Source: a virus
DNA: 36,136 nt
Direction: 5' to 3' (one strand)
Virus record (IMG/VR): IMGVR_UViG_3300050014_000810
Location: 1-36,136 of that record
The position numbers and the translations under genes are program-made. The notes beneath the pieces were generated by a model that saw only the letters and a list, made by a program, of their open reading frames with translations, was not told the origin of the DNA and ran no database searches. Shown here in pieces: positions 1,952-33,806 of the stretch. Position 1 is the stretch's first letter. Each line of letters begins with the position of its first letter.

Positions 1952-3255
1952 CAGATCCTCCGGGTCGCACCGATAGGCAATAGTTCGACACTTTCGAGGT
2001 CGAAGTCCTGGCCGGTACTAGTCAGCTGGAAGGCGAAGTAGCGCGCGCGCAGCCCCTTGCCGAGGTTGATGCGGCTGCTCTTCATGTCCTTGACCTCCGC
2101 CTTGTAGATGTATTCCTTGTCGTCGCCGGTGATCAGCTTGAAGATGAACTCGCCTTCACCCCGGATACCGAGATAGGCAGCTTTGAACGCCGTGTAGCGC
2201 GAGCCCGCAAACTGTGCGAAACCCGAGATGATATCGGTGATGATAGGGGTGCCGTCGTCATCGGGCCCATCAAGTTCGAAAAGACCCTCTTTCGAGGCAC
2301 CCATGTATCGGAAGGATCGTCCCATTCTCGCGAAAGAATTGAAGTCATAATTAGTGTACTCGCTGATCGCGCCGGTGCGTGTGTTGATGGCCCAGGTCGT
2401 GAAACTGCCGCTCGGAGAGGCATAAGCGATGCTGAACTCGATGGTGTCGCTCAGCTCACCATGGTAGATGGCGGAGACCAGCTGCTCGTCGGTGATCTCG
2501 ATCCCGTCGTTCTCGACAACACGCCAGATCAGCGTGTGCCCCAGCACATCGGTGAGCGTGACACCGTCCGCCAACACGGGGCGACCGATGAACTGTCTGG
2601 AGACGTTGTCGGTGAGCCCGACGACATCGAAAATGCCGCCACCGAAGAAGGCGCTGAGGCTCGGGTGCAGCGCCAGCAGCTCGGCGATCTTGACCGAGTA
2701 GACGCCGGAGACCGTCAGGGCAGAGGAGACTTTGAGCTGGTCCAGAATGAACAGCGCGTGCGTGGCGGACACGACCTCGGTAATATTGAGCCGCTCGATG
2801 AGCCTCACAGTGAGGCCGTTGACCAGTGCATCGCTCAGCAGCGCCTGCCCGACCAGCGTCTGGTGGTAGCTGCTGCTGACAGACATCTGCGACGTCAGCT
2901 TGATCACGTCGTCGATCTGCGCACCGACGCCGTAGATGTACGAACTGGAATCCGTAAGATTGATCGACTCGGTGTTGAACAGCGAGAGGACCGCGACATA
3001 GGTGTCCGACAGACTCAGCGTTTCTGTCAGCCCCCAGATGATGGTCTGGATGTCCGCACTCACAGCCTCGGTGAACGCGACGATGTTCGACGTGTGATTG
3101 TAGGCAGGCGTCAAGGTCGATTGTCGACCATCCACGCTCACAGCCTCGGTGAACGCGACGATGTTCGACGTGTGATTGTAGGCATGCGTCAAGGTCGACG
3201 CGCTCACAGCCTCGGTGAACGCGACAACGTCGCTGGTATGTGTGTAGTCCGTCAC
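1951..3255 (-). CDS. Repeat-containing phage tail protein, 434 aa
   Basis: Starts at GTG 3255 with a strong GGAGGA site 7 nt upstream. Residues ~1-70 hold three near-identical copies of a unit reading roughly HTSxxVAFTEAVSA, followed by more diverged copies (SDTxxxxLS, TDxVS) to about residue 245. The C-terminal ~150 residues resemble a tail module common in podovirus-like phages: WAINTRTGAISEYTNYDF, then a segment on the surface signal of a sample (RSFRYMGASKEGLFELDG), then paired strands ending in LESVELLP. The same repeat reappears in the 996-residue protein at 11022-14012, 8 kb away. Function is probably a tail or fibre structural subunit; the exact position in the virion is not shown. 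Confidence 0.8.
   Translation of the reverse strand: MTDYTHTSDVVAFTEAVSASTLTHAYNHTSNIVAFTEAVSVDGRQSTLTPAYNHTSNIVAFTEAVSADIQTIIWGLTETLSLSDTYVAVLSLFNTESINLTDSSSYIYGVGAQIDDVIKLTSQMSVSSSYHQTLVGQALLSDALVNGLTVRLIERLNITEVVSATHALFILDQLKVSSALTVSGVYSVKIAELLALHPSLSAFFGGGIFDVVGLTDNVSRQFIGRPVLADGVTLTDVLGHTLIWRVVENDGIEITDEQLVSAIYHGELSDTIEFSIAYASPSGSFTTWAINTRTGAISEYTNYDFNSFARMGRSFRYMGASKEGLFELDGPDDDGTPIITDIISGFAQFAGSRYTAFKAAYLGIRGEGEFIFKLITGDDKEYIYKAEVKDMKSSRINLGKGLRARYFAFQLTSTGQDFDLESVELLPIGATRRI
3059..3225. repeat. In-gene DNA repeats encoding HTSxxVAFTEAVSA units
   Basis: A 48-bp block at 3059-3106 recurs identically at 3137-3184, and identity continues nearly unbroken for about 12 bp more. A shorter third copy (about 23 bp) begins at 3203. 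Spacings are 78 and 66 bp, both multiples of three. Near-identity at DNA level means recent duplication or active homogenisation, unlike the older, diverged copies further along the gene. Confidence 0.9.
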
Positions 3256-4891: not shown

Positions 4892-5163
4892 CACAGCTCG
4901 AGTCCGATGCGGTTTCTCGCCGCGGTGAGCTCGACGGTCAGCTGACGGAGCTCCTGCTTCAGTTCAGCGACCTCAGTGCGCAGAGCGTTGATGGTCGACT
5001 CGTACTGCTCCAGCAGCAACTTGATTCTGGCCTCGGTCCGGGCATCCAGTGAGTTCTTTCGCCCGAGCAGCGCCAGCACGACGTTGAGTAACCAGCCGCC
5101 GACACCCGAGGCGCCGATCAGCAACCAGGTCTGTACCCAGGAGTCCAAAGGATCGGAATTCAC
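4891..5163 (-). CDS. Small membrane-anchored coiled-coil protein (spanin- or holin-like context unclear)
   Basis: I place the start at GTG 5163 because AGGA lies 8 nt upstream. An ATG at 5178 is in frame but has no purine-rich site. The 90-residue product has a hydrophobic segment at about residues 10-35 (WLLIGASGVGGWLLNVVLAL) followed by a charged helix of about 50 residues with a heptad-like pattern (LLLEQYESTINALRTEVAEL). One membrane span plus an extended coil resembles inner-membrane spanin subunits, but it sits away from the lysis block and no spanin partner is adjacent. Function not assigned. Confidence 0.65.
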   Translation of the reverse strand: MNSDPLDSWVQTWLLIGASGVGGWLLNVVLALLGRKNSLDARTEARIKLLLEQYESTINALRTEVAELKQELRQLTVELTAARNRIGLEL

Positions 5164-5211
5164 GGGACTGGTCCTCATTTGCGAAATTGTTACAGACAGT
5201 TACAGTTCAGG

Positions 5212-5439
5212 TCAATCAGTGGACCTGACTTTCACCCCCGGCACACACGAAAAAGTCACAACTTCCGCGCTCGGACGTACCAACCAAGGCAGTGTCACGT
5301 CGATCGCCCGCTTCAGGATGGCGCGGACTTCCTTGTCTTCACTCCAAGTCCCCATCGAATCAGCGGTGCGCCGGATCGCCTCCAGCCGCGCAGCGATAGG
5401 GTCGTCCTCGAACTGAATCACTTCGGCTTCGTCTTCCAT
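5212..5439 (-). CDS. Small hypothetical protein, 75 aa
   Basis: ATG at 5439 is preceded by GGAG at about 8 nt. The N-terminal half is acidic and helical, with many Glu and Asp; the C-terminal half is mixed and ends in SCVPGVKVRSTD. No motif or membrane segment is recognised. It lies 22 bp downstream of the metallophosphoesterase gene and is read in the same direction, so it is probably co-transcribed with it. Confidence 0.55.
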   Translation of the reverse strand: MEDEAEVIQFEDDPIAARLEAIRRTADSMGTWSEDKEVRAILKRAIDVTLPWLVRPSAEVVTFSCVPGVKVRSTD

Positions 5440-5461
5440 TGCGATGCTCCGTCCAAGAGAA

Positions 5462-6790
5462 TCACTCGGTCACAGCTACTTTCGTGCGCGACACCTCGCC
5501 ATGAACCTTATCGTAAACGATCGACTGAAGCGACCGCCCGGACAGGAACCCAGCGCCGAAGTGCCAGGCGTCCTGGGGGGCTATAATCTGATGCGTTTCA
5601 GTGATGCAGCCATTGCCCTCGGACAAAATCTTGCTGGTGTGATGGACATGGAACCCATGCACAAATCTGTGAGTAGTGCGCCCCCACATCTCGGGCTGCC
5701 TGGTGGCCATGATCGCCGGCATATCCTTGAGCTTGAGCGTATGTCCATGAGTCGAGCCAATCATGACCTTGCCAAACTCCCGAAACCTGAACAGGGACGG
5801 CGATGTGTCGACCTTGACGCGCGGCTCATTGCGATACCAGGCATGCAGGAAGAAGGCGATGGCGTGCGAGGCGTGCTCGTCATGGTTGCCTTGCAGCACG
5901 ATGACTTCAACTTCCGCATGCCGACTCAGCATCAGATCGATGATGTGGGCGCTGGTTTCGCAGGCGGTCAGAAGGACTTTCGGATAGCGGCCATCTACCT
6001 GCAATGGATTGCCTGACGCAGCCGTACGGTTCTCGTTCGAGTCGGCGTGCAGCGTGTCACCGCCGACCAGCAGGAGCGCCTGCTGAGTCGTTGGTGTGCG
6101 CGCGATCACTTTCTCGAAAGTCCCGCGAATCATCCGCACCGCGGTGCGCAGGTCCCAATTCACCGAAGCTTCCTTGCCCCAGATGTAGAGTCCGAAATGC
6201 GGGTCCGACCAAGGATAGAGAGCGAGCTGGTCGGTGAAGCTTAGCGGCGGCGCATCGGCGCGCGTGGTACAAGGTTGAAAGTCTGCGAAATGCTCGGCGA
6301 GCGCCTCGACGAAGGCCCGCGGGTCGACGCCGCCTTCCTTGGTCTTGATCCATCGCTGGACCGTGCGCCCTTCGGCATCGATCAGAGCTGAGACGCCCTT
6401 GACCAGATGCCCGTCCGGCACCTCGAAAGCCTCGCCGTGGGCGCGCTCTTGTTTGACCCAGGCCCCGTCGATCCTCTCCGCCGTGGTCTTGATCTCGAAG
6501 CCGGGGAGAACCGGCTTGAACCCAAGCTCGCCGCGCAGCGCCTTGATCCGGTTGATGTCCTCGTCGCGCGGCACGTAGACCGTCCAGTCGATCGGGAATC
6601 CCTCGCGATCGCAGAGAGCGTCTGGCTTGACTCTGTCTCTTACCGTGTTGCGGTGGACGCCGAGAGCTTCGGCGGCGATGCTGACGGCCCCGATGTGATT
6701 GCCGTGCCTGTCCGATAGCGGCGGATAGCCGGCGCGCAGCGCGGCTTCAACAGCCTCTTTGGTGCGGCGGGCATCGTCAACATCGCTCAT
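5462..6790 (-). CDS. HTH-containing calcineurin-like metallophosphoesterase, 442 aa
   Basis: Start at ATG 6790 with GGGAGGGG 6 nt upstream. Residues ~10-55 form a helix-turn-helix of the type used for site recognition (AVSIAAEALGVHRNTVRDRV). Residues ~190-370 carry the metal-binding signature of calcineurin-like phosphoesterases: a DPH triad at 196-198, GGD at 243-245, GNHD at 301-304 and GHT near 349-351. This predicts a two-metal phosphodiesterase or phosphatase acting on nucleic acid or nucleotides, with the HTH giving DNA binding. Phage proteins of this plan are known, often poorly named. The substrate is not shown. Its place between lysis and tail genes is unusual for a DNA enzyme. Confidence 0.85.
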   Translation of the reverse strand: MSDVDDARRTKEAVEAALRAGYPPLSDRHGNHIGAVSIAAEALGVHRNTVRDRVKPDALCDREGFPIDWTVYVPRDEDINRIKALRGELGFKPVLPGFEIKTTAERIDGAWVKQERAHGEAFEVPDGHLVKGVSALIDAEGRTVQRWIKTKEGGVDPRAFVEALAEHFADFQPCTTRADAPPLSFTDQLALYPWSDPHFGLYIWGKEASVNWDLRTAVRMIRGTFEKVIARTPTTQQALLLVGGDTLHADSNENRTAASGNPLQVDGRYPKVLLTACETSAHIIDLMLSRHAEVEVIVLQGNHDEHASHAIAFFLHAWYRNEPRVKVDTSPSLFRFREFGKVMIGSTHGHTLKLKDMPAIMATRQPEMWGRTTHRFVHGFHVHHTSKILSEGNGCITETHQIIAPQDAWHFGAGFLSGRSLQSIVYDKVHGEVSRTKVAVTE

Positions 6791-11021: not shown

Positions 11022-14012
11022 TCAATGGATCGTAAGCCCGTAGACCATCCAGTTCGCTATGTGCGAAATCGTCACAGCGGGAGTTGTCCAGTAGGACCCG
11101 CTCTCGCCGGCATTAGTATCGGAATGCAGCAAACTGACCGTTACGCTGGAGGTGAAATTGCCGTTGAACCGCGCCGTGACGCCGCTGGGGTTGGTTATGG
11201 TCGCGCCATTATATACTTCCCATCCGAACAAGATTCCCAGACAGGTCAGACTGTTGTTGGTGACATTGACGCTATCCATGCTCACAGAGTCACCGACGCC
11301 TCCATTCGACGACTCGACCGTAGAGACGCCGCTGTAAACCGCCATATATGCAGCCTGATCACCTGTCACGAATGTAAGTGTGTCCGAGCCCGTCGCGATG
11401 CGCGACAGGATCATCGTGTAGTAACTGTCCTGCGTCTGGCTACTGACTAGAGTGTATCCAGCAGGGACATGGTAAGAGGAGTTGCACTGCATAAAGACGA
11501 GAATGAGATCGCCTACCACGGTGCCAGCCGGAGTTCCGAGTGTAGTGCCGGCAACCCCATAAGTGGTGCTATTCCCAACATAAGATACCGCCGCGTTGTA
11601 GACCAGCGTGCTCGCGCACACCGCCTCGGCGAGGGCGATCGACTCGGCGTCCAGTCTATATCCAGAAGGCAACTGACCGAGCACGTCGGCCACGCACGCC
11701 TCCCAGCGCTGACCTTCCGGGTACTCGACGCCGCCGTCCCAGTGAAATGATTGATCCAAAACGGTCATACCACAGGCGAGCGGTTGGCTGATGTGTGCGC
11801 GATGCACAGCCAGCGCAGCCGCGCCTAGCGTGGTCGCCAGCGCATCAGGCGCGGACGTCGTTCCGCGCGGGCGCGAAAACATGTGATTCTTGAACCCCAG
11901 CATCAACGACTCCGGCGCCGACACATGGCTGCGTGCGCAGGCCAGCACGGTCGCGGAGGGGCTCTCGGCGTAAGCAATCGGAGCCATGGACAGCCTGCGC
12001 CACGCTGCCGAGAGCGAGTGCTGACTCTCGGTTAGTGCCAGGCTGATGGTGGCTCCGGCGAGGTTACGGTTGCGCGCGAGCAGCGCTTCGTTCTCGTCCA
12101 CCCGATAGGCGATCGTCTCGGCCTGAAGCTGATGGAAAGCAAGAAGCGCGGCAGTGGATAGCGTTTCAGCGAATACATCAGCGTTCGAGGTATGAAGGCG
12201 ATGAGCCGCGAGACTCGCCGCGAATATGGCTTCGGCGATCGTGACCGTGTCGCTCGCGTGCGCGCGTGCCAGCTTTAATGTCGTAGCCGACACCGCCTCG
12301 GCGATGGCGATCGCCGCCGTGGCAAGTTTGCGATCAGCTGCGAGATAAATATTGGATGGCGCTTCGGAGAATGCCGCCGGTGTGCCCGCCAAGCCCCGAT
12401 TATACGTCCATGCCACGGCGGAAACCGCCTCGGCGAATACCGCCGCGGAAGATGTATGCAAATAGCCAGCATGGATACTCGCGACCGAGATCGCTTCCGC
12501 GAAAACAATCGTGTCAGAGGCATGCTTGTGATATGCGTGGAGCGTCGCCGCGGAGACAATCTCGGTAAAAACCGCGGTATCCGATGCGTGGAGATAATGA
12601 CCATCGGCCACGAGCGCCGCGGCCGAAACTGCCTCAGCGACAGCGACCGTGTCACTCACATGCGCGTGATTGAACGCAAGATTGGCACCAGATACAGCCT
12701 CAACGAAAACCGCTGTACTCGGATAAATGTAAGCTTCATCAGAAGGGACGTATACGACTACCGTGGGCGGAGTCTCGATCAGAACCGCCATAGCCTCGAG
12801 ATTGGCGCCGGAGAATCCCATCGACTGCGCGCCGCTGGGATTCGACGCAGGCCACGCCCATCCAGCGTTGAGGCTCGGGGCACCACCAGGATTAGAATTG
12901 TCGGCATCGAACGTCAGGCTAGGGTACGAGCTGAACGACTGGGGGTAGTTGTTGTAGTCGCCGAAGAAACAGAGAAGCAGATCATCCGCGGTGGCCGGCG
13001 TCAGGCTCGGCGCCGACTGCGGCGGTGAACCATATATGCTGCTGTGCTGACCGATGAGTGGCGCGACACCACCCATCCCGCTGACCACCACGTATTCATA
13101 TACTGTGCTCGCACCAGATGGTGTCCACGACGGGGCAACCGTGTCACCATAAACATAGGTGTGATAGTAGAGATAGAACGTCTCGGAGATCAGCAAAGTG
13201 TAGCCGGTCGGCGGCGTCGGCGCACCGGTATCCTGCGTGATCGCGAGAAAGATAAGATCACCGACGTTCGGCTGGATCGGCAGCTGCGGCGTGATCGGGC
13301 TGCCACTACCCGTACCACCCTGTAAAACGCCAGAAATGTATGGTCTGGGAGGGGCGACTACCGCCGCCGAAGCACCGCTCGCTTTCAGCGCGACCTGCGC
13401 GCCGAATTGTGGCCCAGATTGAACGCCCCAAGGACCTAGCGACAGATCTCCGGTCGCTGTACCGTCGGTGAGTGCCTTGTCCCCAATGACGAGGAGGGCG
13501 CCACTGGGGTCTAACGCTTGTTGCGTGAGGCCACCTGGCAGAGTTGGTGTCCCGCCGCTGCCATAATATGCTGATGAGTAAAAAACGACGAGCTGAGAAC
13601 CCATATAGTTCGGGTTCAGTGACGGGGCTCGATAATTGTCTGCGACCGAAGCACCGCCGCCACTAACCGCGAGCACGCAAGCGGCTAACGTATCAATCGG
13701 GCTCGACGTGTCGCAGCCTGAATAAGATGTGCCGGCGTAACCCCACGTGGCGCCACTGACTCCTGTCGAGAAGGTAACCGAGCTCGGGTCGCCGGACTGG
13801 AATACGCGCCAGCACAGAATAGCCCCGAGAGTCGAGGCCAGCACCCACCAACCAGAGGGCACGGTGATGTCGGAGAAGCCGCCACCAGCGCTCTGCTGGT
13901 TCACCAACACGACAGTGACATCGCCGATCGTCGTACCAGCAGGCAACGGGACCGAGGCCGTGGTGCCTGCGCTCAGACCACCGGCATTCGCGGCTCGTAA
14001 TGCGATAGCCAT
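11022..14012 (-). CDS. Large repeat tail/fibre protein, 996 aa
   Basis: Start at ATG 14012 with AGGA 7 nt upstream. Three copies of a beta-rich domain can be seen, at about residues 10-110, 225-330 and 810-910; each has [PI]xxGxxxGDLxxxxxxQ, a PxGYTLL-type turn and a YxGV-like end. Between the second and third lies a long array (about residues 430-810) of 20-30-residue units reading roughly HxSDTVxxAEAVSAATL, with later copies more diverged. The same unit occurs in the 434-residue protein at 1951-3255. Architecture fits an elongated receptor-binding or tail-surface protein. No enzyme motif is visible. Confidence 0.8.
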   Translation of the reverse strand: MAIALRAANAGGLSAGTTASVPLPAGTTIGDVTVVLVNQQSAGGGFSDITVPSGWWVLASTLGAILCWRVFQSGDPSSVTFSTGVSGATWGYAGTSYSGCDTSSPIDTLAACVLAVSGGGASVADNYRAPSLNPNYMGSQLVVFYSSAYYGSGGTPTLPGGLTQQALDPSGALLVIGDKALTDGTATGDLSLGPWGVQSGPQFGAQVALKASGASAAVVAPPRPYISGVLQGGTGSGSPITPQLPIQPNVGDLIFLAITQDTGAPTPPTGYTLLISETFYLYYHTYVYGDTVAPSWTPSGASTVYEYVVVSGMGGVAPLIGQHSSIYGSPPQSAPSLTPATADDLLLCFFGDYNNYPQSFSSYPSLTFDADNSNPGGAPSLNAGWAWPASNPSGAQSMGFSGANLEAMAVLIETPPTVVVYVPSDEAYIYPSTAVFVEAVSGANLAFNHAHVSDTVAVAEAVSAAALVADGHYLHASDTAVFTEIVSAATLHAYHKHASDTIVFAEAISVASIHAGYLHTSSAAVFAEAVSAVAWTYNRGLAGTPAAFSEAPSNIYLAADRKLATAAIAIAEAVSATTLKLARAHASDTVTIAEAIFAASLAAHRLHTSNADVFAETLSTAALLAFHQLQAETIAYRVDENEALLARNRNLAGATISLALTESQHSLSAAWRRLSMAPIAYAESPSATVLACARSHVSAPESLMLGFKNHMFSRPRGTTSAPDALATTLGAAALAVHRAHISQPLACGMTVLDQSFHWDGGVEYPEGQRWEACVADVLGQLPSGYRLDAESIALAEAVCASTLVYNAAVSYVGNSTTYGVAGTTLGTPAGTVVGDLILVFMQCNSSYHVPAGYTLVSSQTQDSYYTMILSRIATGSDTLTFVTGDQAAYMAVYSGVSTVESSNGGVGDSVSMDSVNVTNNSLTCLGILFGWEVYNGATITNPSGVTARFNGNFTSSVTVSLLHSDTNAGESGSYWTTPAVTISHIANWMVYGLTIH

Positions 14013-14526: not shown

Positions 14527-17500
14527 TTACCTTCCGAGATATTGCTGAAGAACAGGCCACGCGGCCATCGGAACATTCGTGGGCTTGCCTGTCGCCCTCG
14601 CCCTTTGTAGCTGATTCGCTTGTTTCATGTAAGCAGTCCCTAGGGTGTTGGACATCGGTGTCCCCTGATGCGCAGGGTCCAAATCATAGGCCCTAGCCTC
14701 CTCCAGCGCCGCCAGAACACCAGCCCTATCACGGTTCTGCATCGCCACCTTGTACTTCTGTTCGATGACCCCGGCGTGGAACTCGCGACCCTCCATCGCA
14801 CCGATGGCGGCGCGATTGGTTTCCTGATAGTTCGACTTCGCCCCCGTCTCGAAACCGAGCGCGGTGGCGAGCACATCACGCGCGTCGGCCGTGAGCGGCA
14901 TCTCCATGCCGTTTTTGTCCACATAGCGCGTTTTACCGTCATCTCCTTGGACCATGCGGAAGGCACCGACGAGGTTGCGCAACGACGTCGGCAGGAACTC
15001 CTGCATACCCTTCAGCGTCTGGCCGTTGGCGATGTCACGGCCGCCGACGACCCACTTCTGTAGAATACTGAACGGCGATCCCGCAGCCTTGGAGAGATAA
15101 TCCGGGTAGGCGTCCTCGAACTTACGGCGGTCCTCCAGCAGGCGCGTGCCGGGGAGAATGTCCGCGTCGCCGAGGTCGGCCGTGTCGACGCCCAGATAAC
15201 GCGGCAGGCCGCGGCTCAAGAGCGCGCCGACGTCGGGGCCGAACATGCTGCGTAAAAAGTGTTGATAATGCGCCTCGATGTCGTAGCCCTCTCCCTCGTC
15301 GAACGCTTCCGACACACGCGTCATCGCCCCCGCCGCCCAGCCGGCCCCCGGCAGACCGAGCGTGCCGGCGGTCAGGATGACGGCCGCGCCGTGCGCGAGA
15401 AGGAACCTGCGCGCCTCGACCTTCTCTTCCGGGTTCGCTGAAGAGATCGCGTGATGCACTTCGAGGTAGAGCTTCTCCAGCAGTTTGAGTTGATAACCGT
15501 GAAAAGCCGTGACGATCTTCGACATGGAACCAACGATACCTTGCTCGCCGAAAGCGCGCGGCTGGTTCGACGCCTCCCAAGGCATCATGGCTTCGTTCAG
15601 CGCATGAAGGGCATAATCATGAATCTGCTGGTCGTTCCAGCCCTTCTGCCGGCCGAGACGCTCGGCTGCCAGAGCGACGCTCAGGCGGCTGGCGGTCTCG
15701 CCGTAGACCGCCGTCATGTTGCCCCAGTGAAGGGCCTTGTTCAGCCACGTGTGCGCTGTCCCCTTGTCCAAGGTTCCGAAGCTTCCGACGTGCCCCATGC
15801 CAAGCTCGACCGCGCCGCTATTGATGATCCTGGTCAAGAATTTGATGGTGTGTTCCGCGACGCGGGCCTTACGGAGAATATCCGGTGTGAGCGCCCCGCT
15901 CACTCGATTCTCGCCGGTCGTCGCCATCGCACGAATGATCTTGAACGCATCGTTGGTCGAAGCGCCGATCGCCAGCGCCGAGTTCACCGCCCCATGTTTC
16001 TTGATGAACTCAGGCCACGCCAACAGCCCCACTTGGCTCATCTGCTCCAGCACGTAGCTGGGCGACATGCCTAGATAGAAGCCGTGGTTAATAGCCTGTG
16101 CCATGTCCCTGTACGTGTGCGGCACCCGCGCACCACTCTGACTGTCGCGCAGCATGATCTCGTCGACAGCTTTTTGTATTCCGAGACGCGTCTGATGATC
16201 GTAAGCCGGGTTGGACGCCGCCGCGAGACGCTGCTGACGCAAGCCGGCCAAGATGTCCATGCGGTAGCGTAGCGACGCCAGTTTAGCCACCGCGTTCGAT
16301 GTCACCGAGCTGGAAAACATCGCGTTGCGCGTCATGTCGGTGGAATAGCCTTGGATGCTCTGCTTTTCAGCCATCAGCTTCTTGATGGAATTGTCCGGCA
16401 GGACATCCATCGCCAAAGCGCGCATCTCGCGCAGGAACTGACCTTTCTGTTCGTCGGTCATCGCCTTGATCATCGGATGCGCCTCGGCGCTCGATACGAA
16501 TTCCTGCACGAACTTCGGTGCTACGTCCTGCATTTCCTGACTGTTGACGGCTCCGCTCGATATTTCCTTCTCTGGATCGGCATCGAGCAACCCTTTGGCT
16601 TTGGCCGCGTTGGCGATATCCAGCATGCCAGCGGCGTCCTGGCTGCTCTTGAAGCGCATGAATACGTGCCCCTGCGACGACAGCTGGTTCATCGAGACAT
16701 CGCCATAGTCCTTGGACATCATCTGCTGAAGCTCGCGGATCGCAGCCGGATCCGGCGCGCCGTTCGCGAGCGTCCTGATGTACATGGAAACGAAATTGTC
16801 TCCTGTACGCCCCAAGTGCACATAAGGCGCACGTTTATCCTCCGCGGCGGTGTGCTCGGCGAATTTCGCCTGCATGGATGCTAAAGGCGCGGTCTCGGTA
16901 CGGATGGCGGTCTTTCCGGCCTCATCCGCGCTGGACAGCGCGCCACTGCGCTCCTTCAGATAATCCCTGATGCCAGCCTCACGCTTCAGATACTCGGACT
17001 TCATGAACGCCGCGGCGCCATTGATGTCCTGGTGCAGGTCGTTATGTGCGAAATAGTCGCGGAACGGATCGTTCTCGAAGCCTTTGATGCCTTCCGTCTT
17101 GTAGACGGACTTCACCAATTGTTCCTGGAACCCTAGTTTGTGTCCGTAATTGTCCATCACGCCGGCAGCTAAACTATTACGCAGCAGCTGCTGTCCTGGG
17201 TTCGGCGTCGAGCCATCACGTGATTGCCCGAGCTTGTTCCAGTTGGCGCGCGTTTCCATATGGACCGCTTCGAGGTCCTTCACATTCGGTGCATTGTGCA
17301 GCCAAGAATTCTCGCCCCAGGTTTTTGTCGGATCGACGTTGAACTCACCCATCGCGCGGCGCACGCTGTCGACGGCGATACCCATCTTCTTGTCGCCGCG
17401 CGCGTACTTATCCAACGCCTGGATGGCACGCACCTTGGGCATGTCGATGCGGCCCTTCAACTGGCCCGAATAGACAGCATTGACGCGGTGCTGCTCGATG

Positions 17501-20500
17501 CCATCCAAAATGCCCTTCCAGAACCGACCCATGCTATGTTCCGACGACCACTGGTCCATGCCGGCGAGTAACTTGTCGCCTTTGAAGCCAGCGAAACCGT
17601 TCTTCACACCTTGCCAAGTCAGGTCACCGAGCTTGGCGGAGAACGACCCGACATAGCGTTGAGTGCGCCCCATCGTGTCTTCCATGCCGGGGACCGTCTT
17701 CACCAGGATACCCTGCGAGCCGCCGGTGAAGCCGCCCTTGGAGACAGTCTGCAAGCGCTGCTGGAACTGGTCATCCGGCTTGGCCGAGAGTCTCTCTCTG
17801 GAGTCCCGCAGGAACTTGGCCACGTCGCTGACCGAGTAAGTCTCGAACTTCTTAGCGAACTCGGTCAGCCCGAAATCGCGCAATCTGGTCGCGATGGCTT
17901 GTTTGAACTTGCCGACGATCGCCATGAGGGCGAGTTTCATCTTGCCGACCGTCGTGCTGGCCGAGGCGTGCGCGATCATTTCCTCGACCGCGACGACCTT
18001 GTCGCGCGCCGACAACGGGAAGCCTTTGGCCGGAAGATAAGATGCCACGCCCTCGCTATGCAGCGATCGATCCCACACGCCGAACTGTCTGGAGATCTTC
18101 TCGATATTGTCGACGCCGCCGGCACGATCGAAGATGTCGGCGATGCCATGCGCGTAAGAGTCCGAACCGTGTGGCCCAAGCAGCGCCTCTGTGGCCATAT
18201 GGCCCATGACCTCGTGCTTGAACGTGTCTTCGATGTCGGCGCGCGTGCGCGCCTTGTCCAGGATCGTATATGCATGACCGTTGTCGTAGAAGCCGGAGAG
18301 TTCTTGCGGATCGAGCCCTTGTTTCACTGCCTGTGAAAGGAACTCGGGAGGCATGTCACCGACCGTGTCGAGCAGATGCACACGCGATTGAGCATCCGGG
18401 TTTAGCCTCGATGCAAGTTCGTTATGATGTTGACGCAGAGCTTCTTGCGAAACGCTCGAGTTCATGCGCTCTTGGGTCATCGGCTCGACGGTCTTGAACA
18501 GCGGATGACCTGTCATCTGCGTCGCCGCGCGCAATTGGTCGGTGATGGGGAAGGAGTGAACGGTTCGCGTTGTCGGGACGTCTTTGGTCAGCTTACCACC
18601 GAGCAGCTCAGCCACGCCGGTGCTGCCATGCTCGACGACCGCCTGATTAAAATTCACACCCCTCTCTAGTGCGTCAGCAACCGCACGTAATTGTCGTGCA
18701 TACGAAACGCTAGGTGCGTGGGTTGCTAACTCGCGTACTTCCGCAGACGGGCGCCGTGGGCCTTCGTAGCTCCACCTATCATTACCGATAGGAAGCTCAT
18801 ATGGTTCGACTCTCGAGCCGAACTTCTTGACGAGCTTGTTGGCCTCGTTCACCATCATCTCGTTGTAGGCGACCTTCATCCCGCGTTCGCGTACAGCGTC
18901 ACCACCGTAGCGTGCGAAGTTCGTCTCGCCGGTGTCCCAGGTAATACGATCCTGCCCGGTGCGTACAGCCTCGTGGATCATGTGCTTGAGCATCAGGCTC
19001 ATCCACTGAGTGGTGTTCTTCAAGGGGGCTTCCGGCACGCCCTTGGTCGGGTCACTGGTGTCGCGGACATTTTGCTCGGCTTTATCGACGGCCACCTGAG
19101 CAGCGTAGGTGGTCTCCCTAAGACGGATGTATTCCTTACGCAGACTAACGAGTCCTTCTGAATCTGGACTAGTGCGGAGCTTTATGGCTTCACGAAGTTT
19201 ATCTTCGGCCCGGTTCTCTTCAGCTAATGCTTTCGTAAGAGGGTCTTTCGCAGCCTCCAGTTTCTTCTGCGCTTTCTCTATGGCTACAGGATCAGGAACG
19301 CGCTTTTGATTCTGCAATTCCCTTAAACGAGCAGCAGTCGGCATCAGCACCTCACGCTGATATTTGTCACGCGCTGCACTCAGTTCACTATAGGAAGCGT
19401 CATGTGCGTCATAATCCTGCCGCGCTCGTACCACATCCGGGCGCGAGGCATCGTACGCGTGCTGTTTACTTGCTATCCGCAGCCGTTCAACAGCAGCACC
19501 CAATTTGTCGGCTTCTGCGTAATATTCTCTGTCGAGTGTGTTAAATTTATCGAGGGCCGTATCATGCTCGGCCTGACGCTTAGCCAACTCGACAGGATCC
19601 GGCTTGAACCCGCGCGGACGATAACCTTCGTCTTGTGCCTTCTGATGCAGGTCGCTCTGAGCCTCACTGGAGTGCAGGATCTTCTCGCTATTCGCAGCGA
19701 CGCGGTTATCCATACGGTTGTGCCCGATGAAGTTAGTCTCGCCAGGCCAATGAACGTGTGTGAAATCATCTTCGGATTCCTTATACCGCTCCAGATAAGC
19801 TGGTTTTTCCTCCGGATCACTAAGGATATGCCTGAACAAAACCTCACGGTAGTTGGTGCCGCCAGGTGTTGTGTATGGTTCATAGTGCACATTCCCCTCG
19901 TCCAGCGTGACGGTGTGTACAGCAGGGAATGCTTCTTTGAAGTGCGCGGCGATCTGTGCCTTGGTGATCGGGCCTTTCTGGTCAGCCAACCAATTATGCG
20001 TGTGCGTCCAGTCGAGCTCTGTCTGCTTCGCACCGGCACTTTTCAGCGTCGCTTCCCATGCCGGGCCTGGCATCTTGTCTTGCTTGATGTTGTCTAGCGC
20101 GCGCAACGCCGTCGAGTAGCCGAGACCTTCAGGCAACGGCTCTTGTCGGCGCTGCGCGAGGATATCTTTGGGATCGAGTGCCGATCGAATATTATCGGGA
20201 TTCAAAACGGCAACCTGATCGCGACCGCGGCTCTCTGGTATCCCCCGCAAAATCACGGTGTCCAGCCCTTGTTGTCTGGCACGCGCGATTGCCGCGGAAG
20301 TCGCCCCTAAGCTGCCCCTGAAGTTAGGCTTGGGCTCTGGCTCACCCTCCGAAGCATAGAGCTTTTTGTTGCTCTCGTGTATCTGCATATCTTCTTGGAA
20401 ATTCTTGTCGAACATTCTCCCGAGACGCTCGGCGTCTTCTACCGACGTCGGACGGCCCGAATATTTCGTCGCAATCTTCCGCATCGACGCACGAAATTCT

Positions 20501-22707
20501 GGATCGAGAGGGAGACGCTGCACATCGAAAACCGCGGATTTGCCGGGGGTCACACGAACCGGGTAAACACGCGGCCCAGCCGCGTCTTCCTCCTTGTGAG
20601 AAAAAGATCCGGCGTAGCCTGCCGCTTCCTCCGGAGATGCAGAAAAAAACGAAACACCTTTCTCGCCCACGGCCGAGAATTTCCCTGCGGCGTTTACATC
20701 GAACTTATCGAACGAGATAGGGCTGGATGTGCCATGATATAACCGCCATTCTTCAGCATTCGGGTCTACACGTCCATAAGGGTAGATCGGAGATGGGCTA
20801 TTGGGCTCTGGTCGGCGCTGCGCGAGGATGTCATCGGGATTTTCCGGCATCTGCTGGCGTTGCTGCTGCCGAAACCGTTGAAAACCTGCGACCGTCTGTC
20901 GTATACGCGCGGCTTCCTGCGTCTCCGGCGTCAGAGGAGCATGCGGCGCCTGATCTTGCGGCGCCTGATCCGAAGGCCTCAAGCTTTCGAGGTCGGCTTG
21001 CGCGATGTCTTGGATACGCGCCTCGAGATTTTCATCGTTTTGTCCGGGTGCAGCTTCTGGGGCAACGGCATCCCGCGCGGCGTCGCCGCCTGGAACTCCG
21101 CCGCCAGCTCGGGCATTTCCGCGAACATCATCGCTCGCTGCGCTTGCGACTTGAACGGCATTGCGTGGATCTCCATCGATAAAAAAAGCGTTATATTGCT
21201 TATCTTCTTCGCTGGGGACTTTGAGGAATTTCTCACCCGGCCGCGTCGGCCGGTCAGCCTCGACGAGACGCATGTTCAACGCCGGATCAGCATGCAGCTC
21301 GCGCAATGCGTCATTGAACTGACGCGGCGTCACCGCCCCCTCTTCCTCATCCCGCTCGGCATTGACCTTGGCATACAGATCCTTCAGTTCGACCGGCCGG
21401 TTGAATCGGCCGGGCTGGTCGATCGAATCATTCTTGCCGCGCGTCAGATCGGAAACAGCCTCGACAATCTGCTGCTGAAGGGCGAGTCTGGGCGACGGTT
21501 CAGGAGTTACCCCGTCAGCCGGCCGCGGCCCTTGCTCTTGAGGGTGTACGGGCTGAGTTTCTTGATTGACGTCGCGCGGTCCGGCAGCCGCTTCCATGGC
21601 GGCGTCTCGGCTTCCAGCCGCTTCGCCAGCTCGGGATTGTTCTCCCGCGTCCACTGGCGCTGTGCCTCGCTCTTGTACAGTGGTTGGTTCTCCTGCCTGA
21701 GGTTCAGACGGTGCTGCTTCTGCCTGAGGTTCTGGTGGTGTACCCGGCACCTTCGATGCGGCATCGAGCGCGTTCGGGTCGCTGAGAATGCTCTCAGGCG
21801 CCTTGCGAAGGCCGAACAGGCCGCCCATGACGCCGCCGATCGCGCCGCTTTCCAGCGTCGACGAGACGATCGACTTCATCTTACCCATGGTCGGAATATC
21901 AGGCCGCCATGCCACATCGGCCGCTTTTTGCAGGCCGCCGCCGACCGCGCCGACCGCACCCATGCCGAGGCCGCCGTGAATGACGCGGCTGAGCAGCTTA
22001 CCTTCCGTACCCCCCGCGAGCATGCCAGCACCGTGACCAGGCATGATCGACTCGATCGCGCCGAGCGGCACGCCGAGTGCGAGCGCACGCGCCGCGTCCA
22101 GCTGTGACTCGCCGCCTGGCTGCTGCATGGATGATTCGTGCTGGGCAGCGATCGCGCTAGGCACCTGCACAGCCATGCCACCGAGAATACCCGCCGCGGT
22201 GCGGGCGCCGACAGCGGTCGCCGCCTCACCGGTCAGAGCGCCAGCGCCGCCCAAGAAGCTCGGTAGTGCCGCGCCGATGCGTGATAGACCAGCTGGAATC
22301 GCGACTTCAGGCGTCGCGTACATCGCCGCGCCGGCACCGACCAGCGCGGGCACCATCTGGCCGGCCGTGTAGGCAGCCTTGCTGGCAAAGGTGCCGGGAC
22401 TGTCGAACCAACCAGCTTGCTCGAGATCAGGACGGCCTTGCTCTTGCGCGCGCGCATTCAGATAGTCGGACAGACGTTGTGCGTCCATCCACGGCGGGAT
22501 CTTGCTGACGTCTTCGGGGGCAACAGCCGCCCGCTGAATGGTAGCGACAGTCCCGGCAAGCGCGCTGCTGAGCCCGATCGTGCCGACCTTCAGCCCCGCC
22601 CACGGCGCCCAGCCGCCATTCGGGGGCGGCGGTGTCAGCCCACCCGCCCGCATGTAATCCGCCGCGGTCGGCAGAGTGTTCGGATCGAAACTGCCCCAAC
22701 TCGCCAT
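14527..22707 (-). CDS. Giant polyvalent virion protein (ART-like, PGGTNYREVL-domain, metallopeptidase-like, LPD38-like), 2726 aa
   Basis: Start at ATG 22707, overlapping the previous stop (ATGA). The N-terminal ~300 residues hold hydrophobic Gly/Ala-rich stretches; 310-400 and 510-620 are low-complexity linkers. Residues ~650-845 match polyvalent ADP-ribosyltransferase domains (RLYHGTS, GVSFFSASPEEAAGYA). Residues ~885-1290 carry PGGTNYREVL, SEAQSDLHQKAQDEGY and, beyond a coiled-coil insert (~1040-1215), APLKNTTQWMSLMLKHMI, a module seen in many polyvalent proteins. A HEVMGH motif near 1498-1503, with an EE about 75 residues on, marks a metallopeptidase-like domain. Residues ~2270-2560 resemble LPD38. 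Such proteins are thought to enter the host with the DNA and counter its defences. No RNA-polymerase motifs were recognised. Confidence 0.88.
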   Translation of the reverse strand: MASWGSFDPNTLPTAADYMRAGGLTPPPPNGGWAPWAGLKVGTIGLSSALAGTVATIQRAAVAPEDVSKIPPWMDAQRLSDYLNARAQEQGRPDLEQAGWFDSPGTFASKAAYTAGQMVPALVGAGAAMYATPEVAIPAGLSRIGAALPSFLGGAGALTGEAATAVGARTAAGILGGMAVQVPSAIAAQHESSMQQPGGESQLDAARALALGVPLGAIESIMPGHGAGMLAGGTEGKLLSRVIHGGLGMGAVGAVGGGLQKAADVAWRPDIPTMGKMKSIVSSTLESGAIGGVMGGLFGLRKAPESILSDPNALDAASKVPGTPPEPQAEAAPSEPQAGEPTTVQERGTAPVDAGEQSRAGEAAGSRDAAMEAAAGPRDVNQETQPVHPQEQGPRPADGVTPEPSPRLALQQQIVEAVSDLTRGKNDSIDQPGRFNRPVELKDLYAKVNAERDEEEGAVTPRQFNDALRELHADPALNMRLVEADRPTRPGEKFLKVPSEEDKQYNAFFIDGDPRNAVQVASAASDDVRGNARAGGGVPGGDAARDAVAPEAAPGQNDENLEARIQDIAQADLESLRPSDQAPQDQAPHAPLTPETQEAARIRQTVAGFQRFRQQQRQQMPENPDDILAQRRPEPNSPSPIYPYGRVDPNAEEWRLYHGTSSPISFDKFDVNAAGKFSAVGEKGVSFFSASPEEAAGYAGSFSHKEEDAAGPRVYPVRVTPGKSAVFDVQRLPLDPEFRASMRKIATKYSGRPTSVEDAERLGRMFDKNFQEDMQIHESNKKLYASEGEPEPKPNFRGSLGATSAAIARARQQGLDTVILRGIPESRGRDQVAVLNPDNIRSALDPKDILAQRRQEPLPEGLGYSTALRALDNIKQDKMPGPAWEATLKSAGAKQTELDWTHTHNWLADQKGPITKAQIAAHFKEAFPAVHTVTLDEGNVHYEPYTTPGGTNYREVLFRHILSDPEEKPAYLERYKESEDDFTHVHWPGETNFIGHNRMDNRVAANSEKILHSSEAQSDLHQKAQDEGYRPRGFKPDPVELAKRQAEHDTALDKFNTLDREYYAEADKLGAAVERLRIASKQHAYDASRPDVVRARQDYDAHDASYSELSAARDKYQREVLMPTAARLRELQNQKRVPDPVAIEKAQKKLEAAKDPLTKALAEENRAEDKLREAIKLRTSPDSEGLVSLRKEYIRLRETTYAAQVAVDKAEQNVRDTSDPTKGVPEAPLKNTTQWMSLMLKHMIHEAVRTGQDRITWDTGETNFARYGGDAVRERGMKVAYNEMMVNEANKLVKKFGSRVEPYELPIGNDRWSYEGPRRPSAEVRELATHAPSVSYARQLRAVADALERGVNFNQAVVEHGSTGVAELLGGKLTKDVPTTRTVHSFPITDQLRAATQMTGHPLFKTVEPMTQERMNSSVSQEALRQHHNELASRLNPDAQSRVHLLDTVGDMPPEFLSQAVKQGLDPQELSGFYDNGHAYTILDKARTRADIEDTFKHEVMGHMATEALLGPHGSDSYAHGIADIFDRAGGVDNIEKISRQFGVWDRSLHSEGVASYLPAKGFPLSARDKVVAVEEMIAHASASTTVGKMKLALMAIVGKFKQAIATRLRDFGLTEFAKKFETYSVSDVAKFLRDSRERLSAKPDDQFQQRLQTVSKGGFTGGSQGILVKTVPGMEDTMGRTQRYVGSFSAKLGDLTWQGVKNGFAGFKGDKLLAGMDQWSSEHSMGRFWKGILDGIEQHRVNAVYSGQLKGRIDMPKVRAIQALDKYARGDKKMGIAVDSVRRAMGEFNVDPTKTWGENSWLHNAPNVKDLEAVHMETRANWNKLGQSRDGSTPNPGQQLLRNSLAAGVMDNYGHKLGFQEQLVKSVYKTEGIKGFENDPFRDYFAHNDLHQDINGAAAFMKSEYLKREAGIRDYLKERSGALSSADEAGKTAIRTETAPLASMQAKFAEHTAAEDKRAPYVHLGRTGDNFVSMYIRTLANGAPDPAAIRELQQMMSKDYGDVSMNQLSSQGHVFMRFKSSQDAAGMLDIANAAKAKGLLDADPEKEISSGAVNSQEMQDVAPKFVQEFVSSAEAHPMIKAMTDEQKGQFLREMRALAMDVLPDNSIKKLMAEKQSIQGYSTDMTRNAMFSSSVTSNAVAKLASLRYRMDILAGLRQQRLAAASNPAYDHQTRLGIQKAVDEIMLRDSQSGARVPHTYRDMAQAINHGFYLGMSPSYVLEQMSQVGLLAWPEFIKKHGAVNSALAIGASTNDAFKIIRAMATTGENRVSGALTPDILRKARVAEHTIKFLTRIINSGAVELGMGHVGSFGTLDKGTAHTWLNKALHWGNMTAVYGETASRLSVALAAERLGRQKGWNDQQIHDYALHALNEAMMPWEASNQPRAFGEQGIVGSMSKIVTAFHGYQLKLLEKLYLEVHHAISSANPEEKVEARRFLLAHGAAVILTAGTLGLPGAGWAAGAMTRVSEAFDEGEGYDIEAHYQHFLRSMFGPDVGALLSRGLPRYLGVDTADLGDADILPGTRLLEDRRKFEDAYPDYLSKAAGSPFSILQKWVVGGRDIANGQTLKGMQEFLPTSLRNLVGAFRMVQGDDGKTRYVDKNGMEMPLTADARDVLATALGFETGAKSNYQETNRAAIGAMEGREFHAGVIEQKYKVAMQNRDRAGVLAALEEARAYDLDPAHQGTPMSNTLGTAYMKQANQLQRARATGKPTNVPMAAWPVLQQYLGR
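20979..21161 (-). CDS. Nested out-of-frame small protein, KSxAQR family, 60 aa
   Basis: This lies wholly inside the giant gene, same strand, different frame. ATG at 21161 has GGAG 9 nt upstream. The product starts MPFKSQAQRAMMFAEMPELA, then ATP...LPQK, and ends in a basic tail. This matches a small phage protein family with the pattern MPFKSxAQRxxMFAxxPExAxxxxxxTPxxxxLPxK. The giant protein in the same stretch is low-complexity linker (about residues 515-575), so little would constrain that frame. Expression is unproven. See the second copy at 21507-21680. Confidence 0.5.
   Translation of the reverse strand: MPFKSQAQRAMMFAEMPELAAEFQAATPRGMPLPQKLHPDKTMKISRRVSKTSRKPTSKA
21507..21680 (-). CDS. 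Second nested KSxAQR-family ORF, ATG lost or CTG start, ~57 aa
   Basis: Also inside the giant gene and in the same alternative frame as the copy at 20979. It reads YKSEAQRQWTRENNPELAKR, then LEAETPPWKRLPDR and a basic tail. It aligns with the other copy at KS-AQR, PELA, TP and LP. Where that copy has ATG this one has CCA, but CTG follows at once (21678-21680), with AGGAG 9 nt upstream, the same spacing as in the other copy. An in-frame ATG exists at 21764 without a ribosome site. It may use CTG or may be a relic absorbed into the giant frame. Confidence 0.4.
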   Translation of the reverse strand: MYKSEAQRQWTRENNPELAKRLEAETPPWKRLPDRATSIKKLSPYTLKSKGRGRLTG

Positions 22708-23519
22708 CAACGCTGCTCGGTGTTTTGCATTTGCCTACCGGTGTAATTCCCGAGGATGTTCATCTTCATGAGCTCATCCAGCGCCTCAGTGTGTGCTCTA
22801 CTGGCAGCGAGCATATTCTTGCTGTGCTGAGTGGCGTTAATCTCGTTATTATCCAACAAGGCCTGCGAAGCCGCCGCCGAATTGTTGTACTCGAAGTTCG
22901 CTTTTCCGAGGAGCACCCGCGCCGCTTCCGGGACGCCGGCATGCGCAAGGTGAATCTCGTACAGCCGTATCGCCTGATCCGCGGTCAACCCGTTGATTAT
23001 CCGCGACTGCTGCTCAGGATTGACGCGTGGCTGCACCTTCGCGCCAGGCATGCCTACCGCCTGCGGATTATTCGCTGCGGCTTTTGCCTGTCCTACATCC
23101 GCGGCATGATCGGCGATGACCGCGGCCGGATGATCTGCATCCACAGGATAACCAGCGACATAGGAGCCGGCCGCATGTGCCGAAGGATTGAATGTTCCGG
23201 CCGATTTCGTCCAATCGAGAGATGGCGCATCCGGCGCGGGCGCCCCGGTCAAACCACCCAAAAAACTCGGAACGCCAGCGGCGACATACTTGCCTAATGC
23301 CACAGGTGCCGCAGCGAAGTCCTGAGCCGCCTGACCAACCGCCTGTATCGGACCAAGCACACCCGCACGCACGCCCTGGCCGATCTGCCGGGCAGGGTCT
23401 GCGAACCAGGTTTGTGGCGTGGCGACATTAAACGTCGGAGGCAGCGGCCCAGGTGGAGAAGAAGGAGGCGGTATTACACCGGTAGCCGGATCAAACGTCG
23501 GAAGTGGAGCGTCGACCAT
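22707..23519 (-). CDS. Hypothetical virion/ejection protein, 270 aa
   Basis: Start at ATG 23519 with AAGGGA 8 nt upstream; the longer frame to 23564 runs back into the adaptor gene. The N-terminal third is Pro/Gly/Ala-rich (PLPTFDPATGVIPPPSSPPG), the middle is Ala-rich, and the C-terminal third is helical (GLTADQAIRLYEIHLAHAGV, then SQALLDNNEINATQHSKN). It ends on the overlap with the giant gene. Position between the adaptor and the giant ejected protein suggests an internal virion or connector protein. I do not recognise the family. Confidence 0.7.
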   Translation of the reverse strand: MVDAPLPTFDPATGVIPPPSSPPGPLPPTFNVATPQTWFADPARQIGQGVRAGVLGPIQAVGQAAQDFAAAPVALGKYVAAGVPSFLGGLTGAPAPDAPSLDWTKSAGTFNPSAHAAGSYVAGYPVDADHPAAVIADHAADVGQAKAAANNPQAVGMPGAKVQPRVNPEQQSRIINGLTADQAIRLYEIHLAHAGVPEAARVLLGKANFEYNNSAAASQALLDNNEINATQHSKNMLAASRAHTEALDELMKMNILGNYTGRQMQNTEQR

Positions 23520-31364: not shown

Positions 31365-33806
31365 CTAGACAAAATGGTAGTTGGGAAGGTTCTGGGTGAG
31401 AGGCCGCTTGCCACGGCCGTCCCCGTCGCCGCCATGATAGCGCAGTTCCCGCTCCGTCCGCCGGTGAAAATACCTGCATAGGTAACCAAAGCTGTCGCCT
31501 GGATGCGAATACTGATTCTTTTCCGGGGCAATTCCTTTAATGTCGTCTTTCTTGGTGTCCATCGTGTAGCGCCAGCCGCCCTTGAGCGCCCGAATCAGTG
31601 TCGGGCACTCCTTGGCGTCGATTTGTAACGCCGCGCCACCCACCGTCAACCGCGTTGTGAAGTGCTCGATGGCGTCGAGACGCAGCGGCAGCCGGTTGTT
31701 GGTCTCGCAATGCACCATGAAGTGCTGCTTGAAGCGGTCGACAACCGTCTTTTCGTCCGTTTGCGTTCGATTGTTGGCCGCTGGATCCGCCGCGATGACG
31801 ATCATGCCAGGTACATGGCCGGGGATGTCCGGGAACCGGCGCCGCAGGTAAGGCTTGAGCTTCTCGCTGATCAGCCGGTCGGCGCCGTAGCCCGACTGCA
31901 CCAGCTCCCCCAGCACGTTGAGCCTGCCTTGCAGGTCCTCTTGCCCAAAGATGAGTGCCGAACCAGTTATGCCTGGATCGAGGCCGATAATAAGCGGTAA
32001 GTGCTTGTTATATCTAATGTCGCCGTTGGATATGTGGATGCTTGCCTTGAACGTCGGAACGACCGCCTGGCCGGAGATGCTGAAGCCCCACTCGGCCTCG
32101 ACGAACTGCTTGACCCAGGCCTCCGAATTGCCTGCCGCGAGGTTCAGATAATACTTGTTGGACCCGTCGCGCGGCGGCAGGTTAACTAGATTCTCAGCGT
32201 CCGGGTCAAACCCGCCAGGCTGGTGGAAATAGGTTATCGTCCGATTATCGTCCGGCATTCTCGGTGCATCGAGATTGGCCCTGGTCATTTTCCGGACCTT
32301 GGTCGCATCGTGCAGATAGTCGAACCACCAGCTATCCTCGGTGCTCGGGTTGGAAGACCCCCAGACACCGTAGTTGGTGGCGCCACCATCCTTGGGAGGC
32401 GGAAAACGCCCTGCCCGCGCGCTGATGGCCTCGAGGATCTTCTTCGGGATCTGCACGAACTCGTCGATCAGAACGAAAGTCACTTCGAGGGAAAGCACCC
32501 GCGCCACGTCGTCTTCGGTGTCCAGAGGACGAAACAGCACCTCACACTCGACGTCACCGAATCTAAGTGTGAAGATCTTGTTCGTGGCCTGCCACTTGCC
32601 GGCCTGCCCATCCTTGAACCAGTAGTTCCAGGATACTAATGTCGTATCGGTCAACTGAGGATTGGTATTCCTCACGATGACGGCGCGGGTGCGACGTATG
32701 CCGTCAGCCCAGGGCGCTTGCAGACTGGCCATGTAAGCCAACTTAAAGAAAATTCCGGTAGTCTTACCGGAGTTTCCAGTGACAAAGATTGTGTCATTGC
32801 AGCGCGCGACAAAAAATCCGGTCGAGGTCGAAAAGCAGTATTTCATCCCATTGATCAGGCCACCGACCGGCTCAATACACGAGATCCGGGTCGTGTCGGT
32901 CCGGATGGCCGCCTTATTTTTATGGTTGTCCGCCACACGAATCTGGACGGTGTACTGAGTCAACCATTCCGGGTGTTGTGAGTCGTAGACCGCTTTGATC
33001 GTTGCCCGGAACCCGCACGCGTGGGCTGCGAACTGGATCGCGTCGGCATGCCTCTTTACCGTCGAGTAGTAGCGCTTCTCGGCATGCTCGTTCAGTCCAT
33101 CCCAACGCAGACACTCGTCGAGCACAATCTCCAGCTGGCGTGTCGAGAGCCCCCAGACGAAGTTCAATGACTTGGAGGCCTCCGGCCACCGCAGCGTGAA
33201 CCGTGTCTCCGTCTCACGTTGAGCATAAGTGGTCTCCTTCCAAGGTATGCCGGCATCCCTCAGCAGCTCGCGCAGGCGCGTCTTCTTGTATTCCTTGCGG
33301 ACGACGATGAACTGCTGCTGGCCACGCTCCGGGATATGCCCGTCCGCGCTGAAGGCGATACGCATCCTGATCTCAGCTTCTCCCATCCGGACGTCGTCGC
33401 GAACAAGCGAGAAAGTCGTAGGGATAGTCCTCCTGGACGGATGAGCAGCGCATTCCGCCGCTGTCGCGACTTGCGAAACACCGCGATAGTCATTGTAGAG
33501 AACCTTGTGCTCAGGCGACAGCTCCATCTCCAGGGAGCCGCTATCGAACCGAATGAAGGGTGTCGTCGCGGGTAGGCATACGTACTCGGCCGGCTCGAAG
33601 AAGACCTCACCGTCTTTGTAGACCGCCACCAGATCGTCGGTCTGATAAGCGTCCATCCGCCGCCAGCCGGCCGGCGTCAGAAATTCACTGTCAGCCGGCA
33701 AGCAGCCCACCGGCCCTACGATCCAGTCGAAAAAAAGGTCGTGCGGCTTGTAGTCCTTGATGAACGCGTTGATCGTATCAGGCGGGACGTAGTCGATTAT
33801 GCTCAC
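31365..33806 (-). CDS. terL: Terminase large subunit with intein in Walker A, 813 aa (502 aa after splicing)
   Basis: Start at GTG 33806, overlapping the upstream stop (GTGA). The host protein is split at residue 34: IVGPVG, then an intein from Cys35 to Asn345, then SGKTTGIFFK. Joined, this gives the P-loop GPVGSGKT. Walker B (FVLIDE) lies near 444-449. The nuclease domain has the three acidic sites of the RNase-H fold: Asp610 in IGLDPG, Asp674 in AADP and Asp771 in HPGDS. It drives ATP-dependent packaging and cuts concatemers. Without splicing the ATPase site cannot form. Confidence 0.95.
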   Translation of the reverse strand: MSIIDYVPPDTINAFIKDYKPHDLFFDWIVGPVGCLPADSEFLTPAGWRRMDAYQTDDLVAVYKDGEVFFEPAEYVCLPATTPFIRFDSGSLEMELSPEHKVLYNDYRGVSQVATAAECAAHPSRRTIPTTFSLVRDDVRMGEAEIRMRIAFSADGHIPERGQQQFIVVRKEYKKTRLRELLRDAGIPWKETTYAQRETETRFTLRWPEASKSLNFVWGLSTRQLEIVLDECLRWDGLNEHAEKRYYSTVKRHADAIQFAAHACGFRATIKAVYDSQHPEWLTQYTVQIRVADNHKNKAAIRTDTTRISCIEPVGGLINGMKYCFSTSTGFFVARCNDTIFVTGNSGKTTGIFFKLAYMASLQAPWADGIRRTRAVIVRNTNPQLTDTTLVSWNYWFKDGQAGKWQATNKIFTLRFGDVECEVLFRPLDTEDDVARVLSLEVTFVLIDEFVQIPKKILEAISARAGRFPPPKDGGATNYGVWGSSNPSTEDSWWFDYLHDATKVRKMTRANLDAPRMPDDNRTITYFHQPGGFDPDAENLVNLPPRDGSNKYYLNLAAGNSEAWVKQFVEAEWGFSISGQAVVPTFKASIHISNGDIRYNKHLPLIIGLDPGITGSALIFGQEDLQGRLNVLGELVQSGYGADRLISEKLKPYLRRRFPDIPGHVPGMIVIAADPAANNRTQTDEKTVVDRFKQHFMVHCETNNRLPLRLDAIEHFTTRLTVGGAALQIDAKECPTLIRALKGGWRYTMDTKKDDIKGIAPEKNQYSHPGDSFGYLCRYFHRRTERELRYHGGDGDGRGKRPLTQNLPNYHFV
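32772..33704 (-). mobile_element. Intein with LAGLIDADG-like endonuclease region, 311 aa
   Basis: Residues 35-345 of the terminase frame. It starts CLPADSEFLTPAGW (Cys1, block A), has LSPEHKVLY (block B), and ends YCFSTSTGFFVARCND then TIFVTGN before Ser+1 (blocks F and G). The residue before the last Asn is Gly, not the usual His. Between these lie two short LAGLIDADG-like motifs (IRMRIAFSADGHI and IVLDECLRWDG) typical of dodecapeptide homing endonucleases; the DG acids are kept. The unit therefore looks able to splice and perhaps to home to empty alleles. Confidence 0.9.

Follow-up and report, generated by a model that had tools for sequence, protein, structure and literature searches.

In lambda Rz1, which lies inside Rz, and in the other wholly embedded o-spanin genes, a small gene is read on the same strand as the larger one, in another frame and from its own start. 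Same-strand genes wholly inside another gene are, on our understanding of gene callers, easily omitted from annotation, so that the tailed-phage family described below can stay largely invisible in giant genes. A second point of reference is provided by the DarB-like or polyvalent giants, very large proteins encoded beside head genes (PMC5512222), the label implying several recognised enzymatic domains. Nested genes go unmentioned in those passages of that paper which our search covered, and a wider literature search, directed at the present family and at genes nested within phage giants, returned nothing, most subscription journals lying outside its reach. Here we describe a 36,136-nucleotide stretch of viral DNA (IMG/VR record IMGVR_UViG_3300050014_000810, hereafter the window) in which a giant gene holds two out-of-frame members of one small protein family.

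The host gene (14527-22710, minus strand) encodes a protein of 2727 aa and was delimited as an open reading frame with C-terminal homology to other giants. It is like the DarB-like and polyvalent giants in its very large size and in being encoded beside head genes; its homology to proteins annotated as DarB-like in Itty13 and Atu_ph08 is weak, with only 22-23% identity over the C-terminal 600 aa, and no Pfam family was found in it at E values up to 10. PHROGs gave no match at 1e-3, and none of the several recognised enzymatic domains was detected by either search. The first-pass annotation had called the gene polyvalent; the label thus has weak C-terminal homology behind it but no domain hits. 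As a separate observation, the protein contains a metallopeptidase-like motif (KHEVMGH) and a stretch reminiscent of ADP-ribosyltransferases (YHGTSS...GVSFFS), both without a Pfam or PHROG match. A scan with the whole giant protein as query returned zero relatives, and these were reached instead via its C-terminal alignment and via the capsid protein.

The two small open reading frames share one alternative frame of this giant (22710-14527) and lie about 500 bp apart. ORF1 (20979-21161, minus strand, stop included; 60 aa; MPFKSQAQRAMMFAEMPELAAEFQAATPRGMPLPQKLHPDKTMKISRRVSKTSRKPTSKA), recognised by its translation, the family HMM and its relatives, has an ATG at 21161, and its first base is codon position 2 of the host gene. 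A GGAG Shine-Dalgarno sequence (21171-21174, minus strand) stands 9 nt 5' of the ATG with a duplex energy of -6.4, a value reached by only 4.7% of the control ATGs taken from this frame of the giant gene. ORF2 (21507-21680, minus strand, stop included; 57 aa; LYKSEAQRQWTRENNPELAKRLEAETPPWKRLPDRATSIKKLSPYTLKSKGRGRLTG), placed by sequence and the family HMM, has neither ATG nor GTG at the corresponding site: CCA occupies the Met position, with a CTG, a possible start at 21680, one codon later, and a Shine-Dalgarno-like GGAG (21690-21693, minus strand; duplex energy -7.4) again 9 nt 5' of it. The position of both ORFs, their common frame and the exact spacing of GGAG before ATG and CTG are as the first-pass annotation had described them, and both indeed fall over linker, in a variable region between the conserved N- and C-terminal parts of the giant. 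The length of the open frame was considered as evidence and rejected, as the frame survives host-synonymous codon shuffling in 57% (ORF1) and 56% (ORF2) of cases. The giant gene being GC-rich, an open alternative frame is unremarkable; what is remarkable is the match to a family.

The core of that family reads MPFKSxAQR...PExA...TPxxxxLP and is followed by a basic tail; ORF1 and ORF2 both retain K4, S5, A7, Q8, R9, P17, A20, T27, P28, L33 and P34. The family HMM found them with E values of 1.2e-18 (ORF1) and 9.6e-10 (ORF2). When every sequence of the window was left out of the model they still scored 69.6 and 42.4 bits, the best of 1000 host-synonymous shuffles of each reaching 19.1 and 17.7, and a six-frame search of the window with the family HMM matched nothing else. 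These scores and the shared core residues therefore bear out that the two peptides are members of a single family of small phage proteins. The support comes from the family model built here; Pfam gave no hit for the window's own two peptides, and PHROGs, including PHROG 1375, left them unmatched at E values up to 10. Free-standing members of the family do give weak matches to PHROG 1375, of unknown function, across the KSxAQ...LP core (E from 9e-5 to 0.07), but the PHROG profile begins 16 residues earlier.

The two ORFs are 38% identical over 39 residues, in the same phase and some 500 bp apart, and the host frame over them shows a parallel similarity, which had prompted the suggestion that one DNA segment was duplicated. 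A recent duplication within the window's giant, which would be independent of whether either copy is expressed, nevertheless seems unlikely to us. The pair scores 61, compared with 151 and 116 to copies in other phages, so that each copy is nearer to those than to its neighbour, and no second locus with two copies was found among those examined. ORF1 and ORF2 therefore do not appear to be recent duplicates, and the parallel similarity of the host frame follows from two homologous peptides being read in the same phase.

Relatives are numerous in viral contigs, most of them from uncultured phages: at least 348 were found with ORF1 alone as query and at least 504 with a 12-sequence alignment. A single scan of contigs from bacterial and archaeal genomes added four, three of them nested in the same phase, and searches of the cultured-phage collection brought up only a few groups. 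In about half of the first 80 loci the small gene lies out of frame within ORFs of roughly 1450-2790 aa, and all 68 distinct nested copies collected are in one phase, nested codon position 1 coinciding with host position 2. Because the first scan had used the small protein as query, giants were re-collected by their own C-terminus. Of the 43 loci in this set, 32 have the small gene nested, always in the same phase. Several of the 11 without it lack their 5' end through truncation, and the set includes some near-duplicates and some loci from contigs encountered earlier. Closer relatives were reached via the major capsid protein of the window, to which theirs are 75-85% identical; the gene is present in 12 of their 35 giants. 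As the remaining 23 lack it, and likewise the giants of the cultured phages Atu_ph08 and Mwe-JY07, phages can evidently do without the gene or replace it.

In nine marine loci the small gene lies directly 3' of a homologous giant instead of within it. The stop of the giant and the start of the small gene overlap as TAATG in L032, whose giant is 37% identical, over almost its full length, to that of L015, where the gene is nested. A cultured example is provided by the Flavobacterium phage elemoF (Elemovirus, NC_055853), whose 11-kb 'structural protein' gene contains, at 52379-52504 and again in the same phase, a family member beginning MPFKSKAQMK; no feature marks this copy in the annotation of NC_055853, the one cultured-phage record with a copy that was checked. 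Two further loci are recorded as side observations. In L258 (14392-14490), a relative of the window, the nested copy is shortened to 33 aa (MPLKSQAQQKYLFASNPKVAKEFAFKTLKDKQL) and apparently decaying, and in L033, a 198-kb phage contig, a 425-aa protein (5001-6275) starts with an MPFKSQAQR module followed by glycine-rich hydrophobic segments and a HEIGH motif.

Divergence at host codon positions 1, 2 and 3 is 0.26, 0.13 and 0.09 in the overlap, compared with 0.29, 0.20 and 0.45 in the flanks; host position 3 is nested position 2, so the sites that the host could freely change are frozen. A class test on 13 independent pairs counted 28 nested-only changes against 54.8 expected and 119 host-only changes against 46.5 expected (P=4e-18), and when a window was slid along the whole giant gene, the nested window was the poorest in position-3 differences in 14 of 18 pairs. 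These 18 pairs are not all independent, and neither are the statistics across copies fully so. Purifying selection in the alternative frame, which the first-pass annotation had named as the decisive test, is thus found by divergence, class and sliding-window tests for ORF1-type genes in relatives; no relative was found that is close enough to the window's giant for a direct test on its own two copies. The giant frame is constrained too, as far as can be judged from sequence comparison, since it must stay open across the nested gene. Indeed, Phe3 is encoded by TTC in all 62 nested copies, compared with 11 of 36 free-standing ones, because a TTT codon followed by Lys would introduce TAA into the giant frame, and only 16% of free-standing copies are stop-free in the giant's phase. 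Over the nested ATG, the giant has an Asp or Asn codon (GAT or AAT) in most copies, and exchange for the synonymous partner would abolish the ATG with the giant protein unaltered.

It had been left undecided whether the small genes are still expressed or were swallowed by a growing frame. On the latter account the small genes were overrun by the growing giant frame, have ceased to make protein and keep their frame by inertia alone, which would agree with the missing ATG or GTG of ORF2, the shortened copy in L258 and the many giants without the gene. We regard this as quite improbable in general, given that in relatives both the nested amino acids and the start signals are under strong selection, and it fits ORF2 better than ORF1. 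Expression is much better supported for ORF1, through selection on ORF1-type genes in relatives, whereas ORF2, which lacks an ATG and draws no such support from relatives, may be a relic. ORF2 is a diverged second family member that has lost its Met and may use CTG or be such a relic; that it is expressed, possibly from the CTG behind its good Shine-Dalgarno, we would put slightly below an even chance.

In all 34 copies tested outside a flavobacterial-type group the duplex energy with the anti-Shine-Dalgarno is -5.0 or lower, compared with an average of -1.9 for control ATGs in the same frame. The other 21 copies, including that of the Flavobacterium phage, have no Shine-Dalgarno and instead show T at -15 followed by A from -14 to -11, a leader resembling that of the flanking genes and unlike that of control ATGs. 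Work on Flavobacterium johnsoniae (PMC6847099) describes an enrichment of adenines from -14 to -11, links the ones at -12 and -13 with efficient translation and also describes an A at -3; we saw no enrichment of A at -3 among the nested copies.

An in-frame stop lies no more than 15 codons upstream in 44 of the 68 nested copies, and 41 have that frame closed at 0-10 codons 5' of the ATG, which makes the copies hard to reach save by internal initiation and speaks against frameshifting. Programmed frameshifting, whereby ribosomes would slip to +1 and a truncated giant would end in the small domain, is compatible with the common strand and fixed phase and with the few phages in which the nested frame is open far upstream (38 codons for ORF1, 138 in L214), but in view of these closed frames, and of the ATG with a start signal that nearly all copies keep, we consider it very improbable. 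If the segment were a DNA or RNA element, for packaging, recombination or as a structural RNA, with merely incidental coding, its strong local nucleotide conservation would be explained, but this is barely credible, as that conservation is codon-structured, nested position 3 being the most variable and position 2 the least, and the same peptide is encoded with different codons in free-standing genes.

We thus consider it very probable that this is a genuine nested gene, internally initiated on the giant's mRNA, with the production of protein inferred in the absence of transcript, ribosome-profiling or peptide data. A small conserved gene lies wholly within the giant gene in the +1 frame, and according to this model ribosomes would start afresh at an internal ATG of the giant's mRNA, directed there by a Shine-Dalgarno in most phages and by an A-rich leader in the flavobacterial ones. 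Over the same bases, the frame of the giant would be an acidic, probably disordered linker, and as it reads through these bases, one stretch would code for two proteins. Sequence data establish that the copies form one family in a constant phase, that selection acts on the nested frame, that start signals are present and that the giant frame has to stay open; ORF1 itself is most likely such an internally initiated nested gene, although its expression remains an inference.

A more speculative, and rather doubtful, extension is that nested gene and linker travel together from one giant phage gene to another as a two-frame cassette, always entering in one phase. While blastp links most giants to one another, it detects no link between those of L004 and L006 and the rest, and in both the nested gene is still in the same phase. 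The mean net charge of the overlap is -2.5 in the host frame versus +12 in the third frame. If the idea were true, the host frame would become an acidic linker in the phase of entry, and the cassette would make the yield of the small protein follow that of the giant.

The role of the small protein can only be guessed at. An AlphaFold model of ORF1 (82-sequence alignment; mean pLDDT 77, pTM 0.41) predicts two short helices, at residues 6-15 and 17-26, with the basic tail beyond them; a fold search with this model found no match, and searches of Pfam, PHROGs and the PDB yielded no usable function, the PDB sequence hits Cake and Scone being set aside because they look compositional. Free-standing genes lie between portal and head genes or between head genes and the head-closure gene, in one setting beside a holin, and in a myophage-like group with neck-type genes on one side and tail-sheath-like genes on the other, these last neighbours being named by sequence inspection without a database hit. 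From this neighbourhood, and with no support from fold or structure, we tentatively suggest a short helical, basic accessory of virion or head assembly acting beside the giant. Most economically, it would serve virion assembly, or an internal virion protein, as an accessory, a guess that we hold with less than even confidence.

Other features of the window are noted for completeness. The terminase large-subunit ORF (31365-33806, minus strand, 813 aa) is interrupted in frame by an insertion of some 310 aa, starting with Cys (GCLPADSEFLTPAGW...) and finishing with ...FVTGN directly before the SGKTT of the Walker A motif; residues 31-350 match PHROG 32482 and residues 346-785 match terminase. The insertion looks like an intein in the ATPase site. 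In addition, the translations of 1951-3255 and 11022-14012 (minus strand) are structural-type proteins with repeated VAFTEAVSA-like units (VVAFTEAVSAST... and TVAVAEAVSAAAL...).

In summary, the family offers a deep, recurrent and measurable case of nesting, and an example of a large protein accepting a linker dictated by another gene. Elemovirus on Flavobacterium sp. BAL314 is a cultured system in which the nested gene can be tested. Its 11-kb gene resembles that of the window in carrying a nested family member in the same phase, but the host protein has no direct blastp match to the window's giant, and the nested copy has a Bacteroidetes-type leader instead of a Shine-Dalgarno. Compared with Rz1 and the embedded o-spanins, the host here is a giant virion-type gene rather than a spanin, and the product is without a lipoprotein signal or membrane segment in its sequence. 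As free-standing copies exist, the nested family was probably not born by overprinting. What it has in common with Rz1 and the embedded o-spanins is that the small gene is wholly enclosed by a larger one, is read from the same strand in a different frame and has a start of its own.
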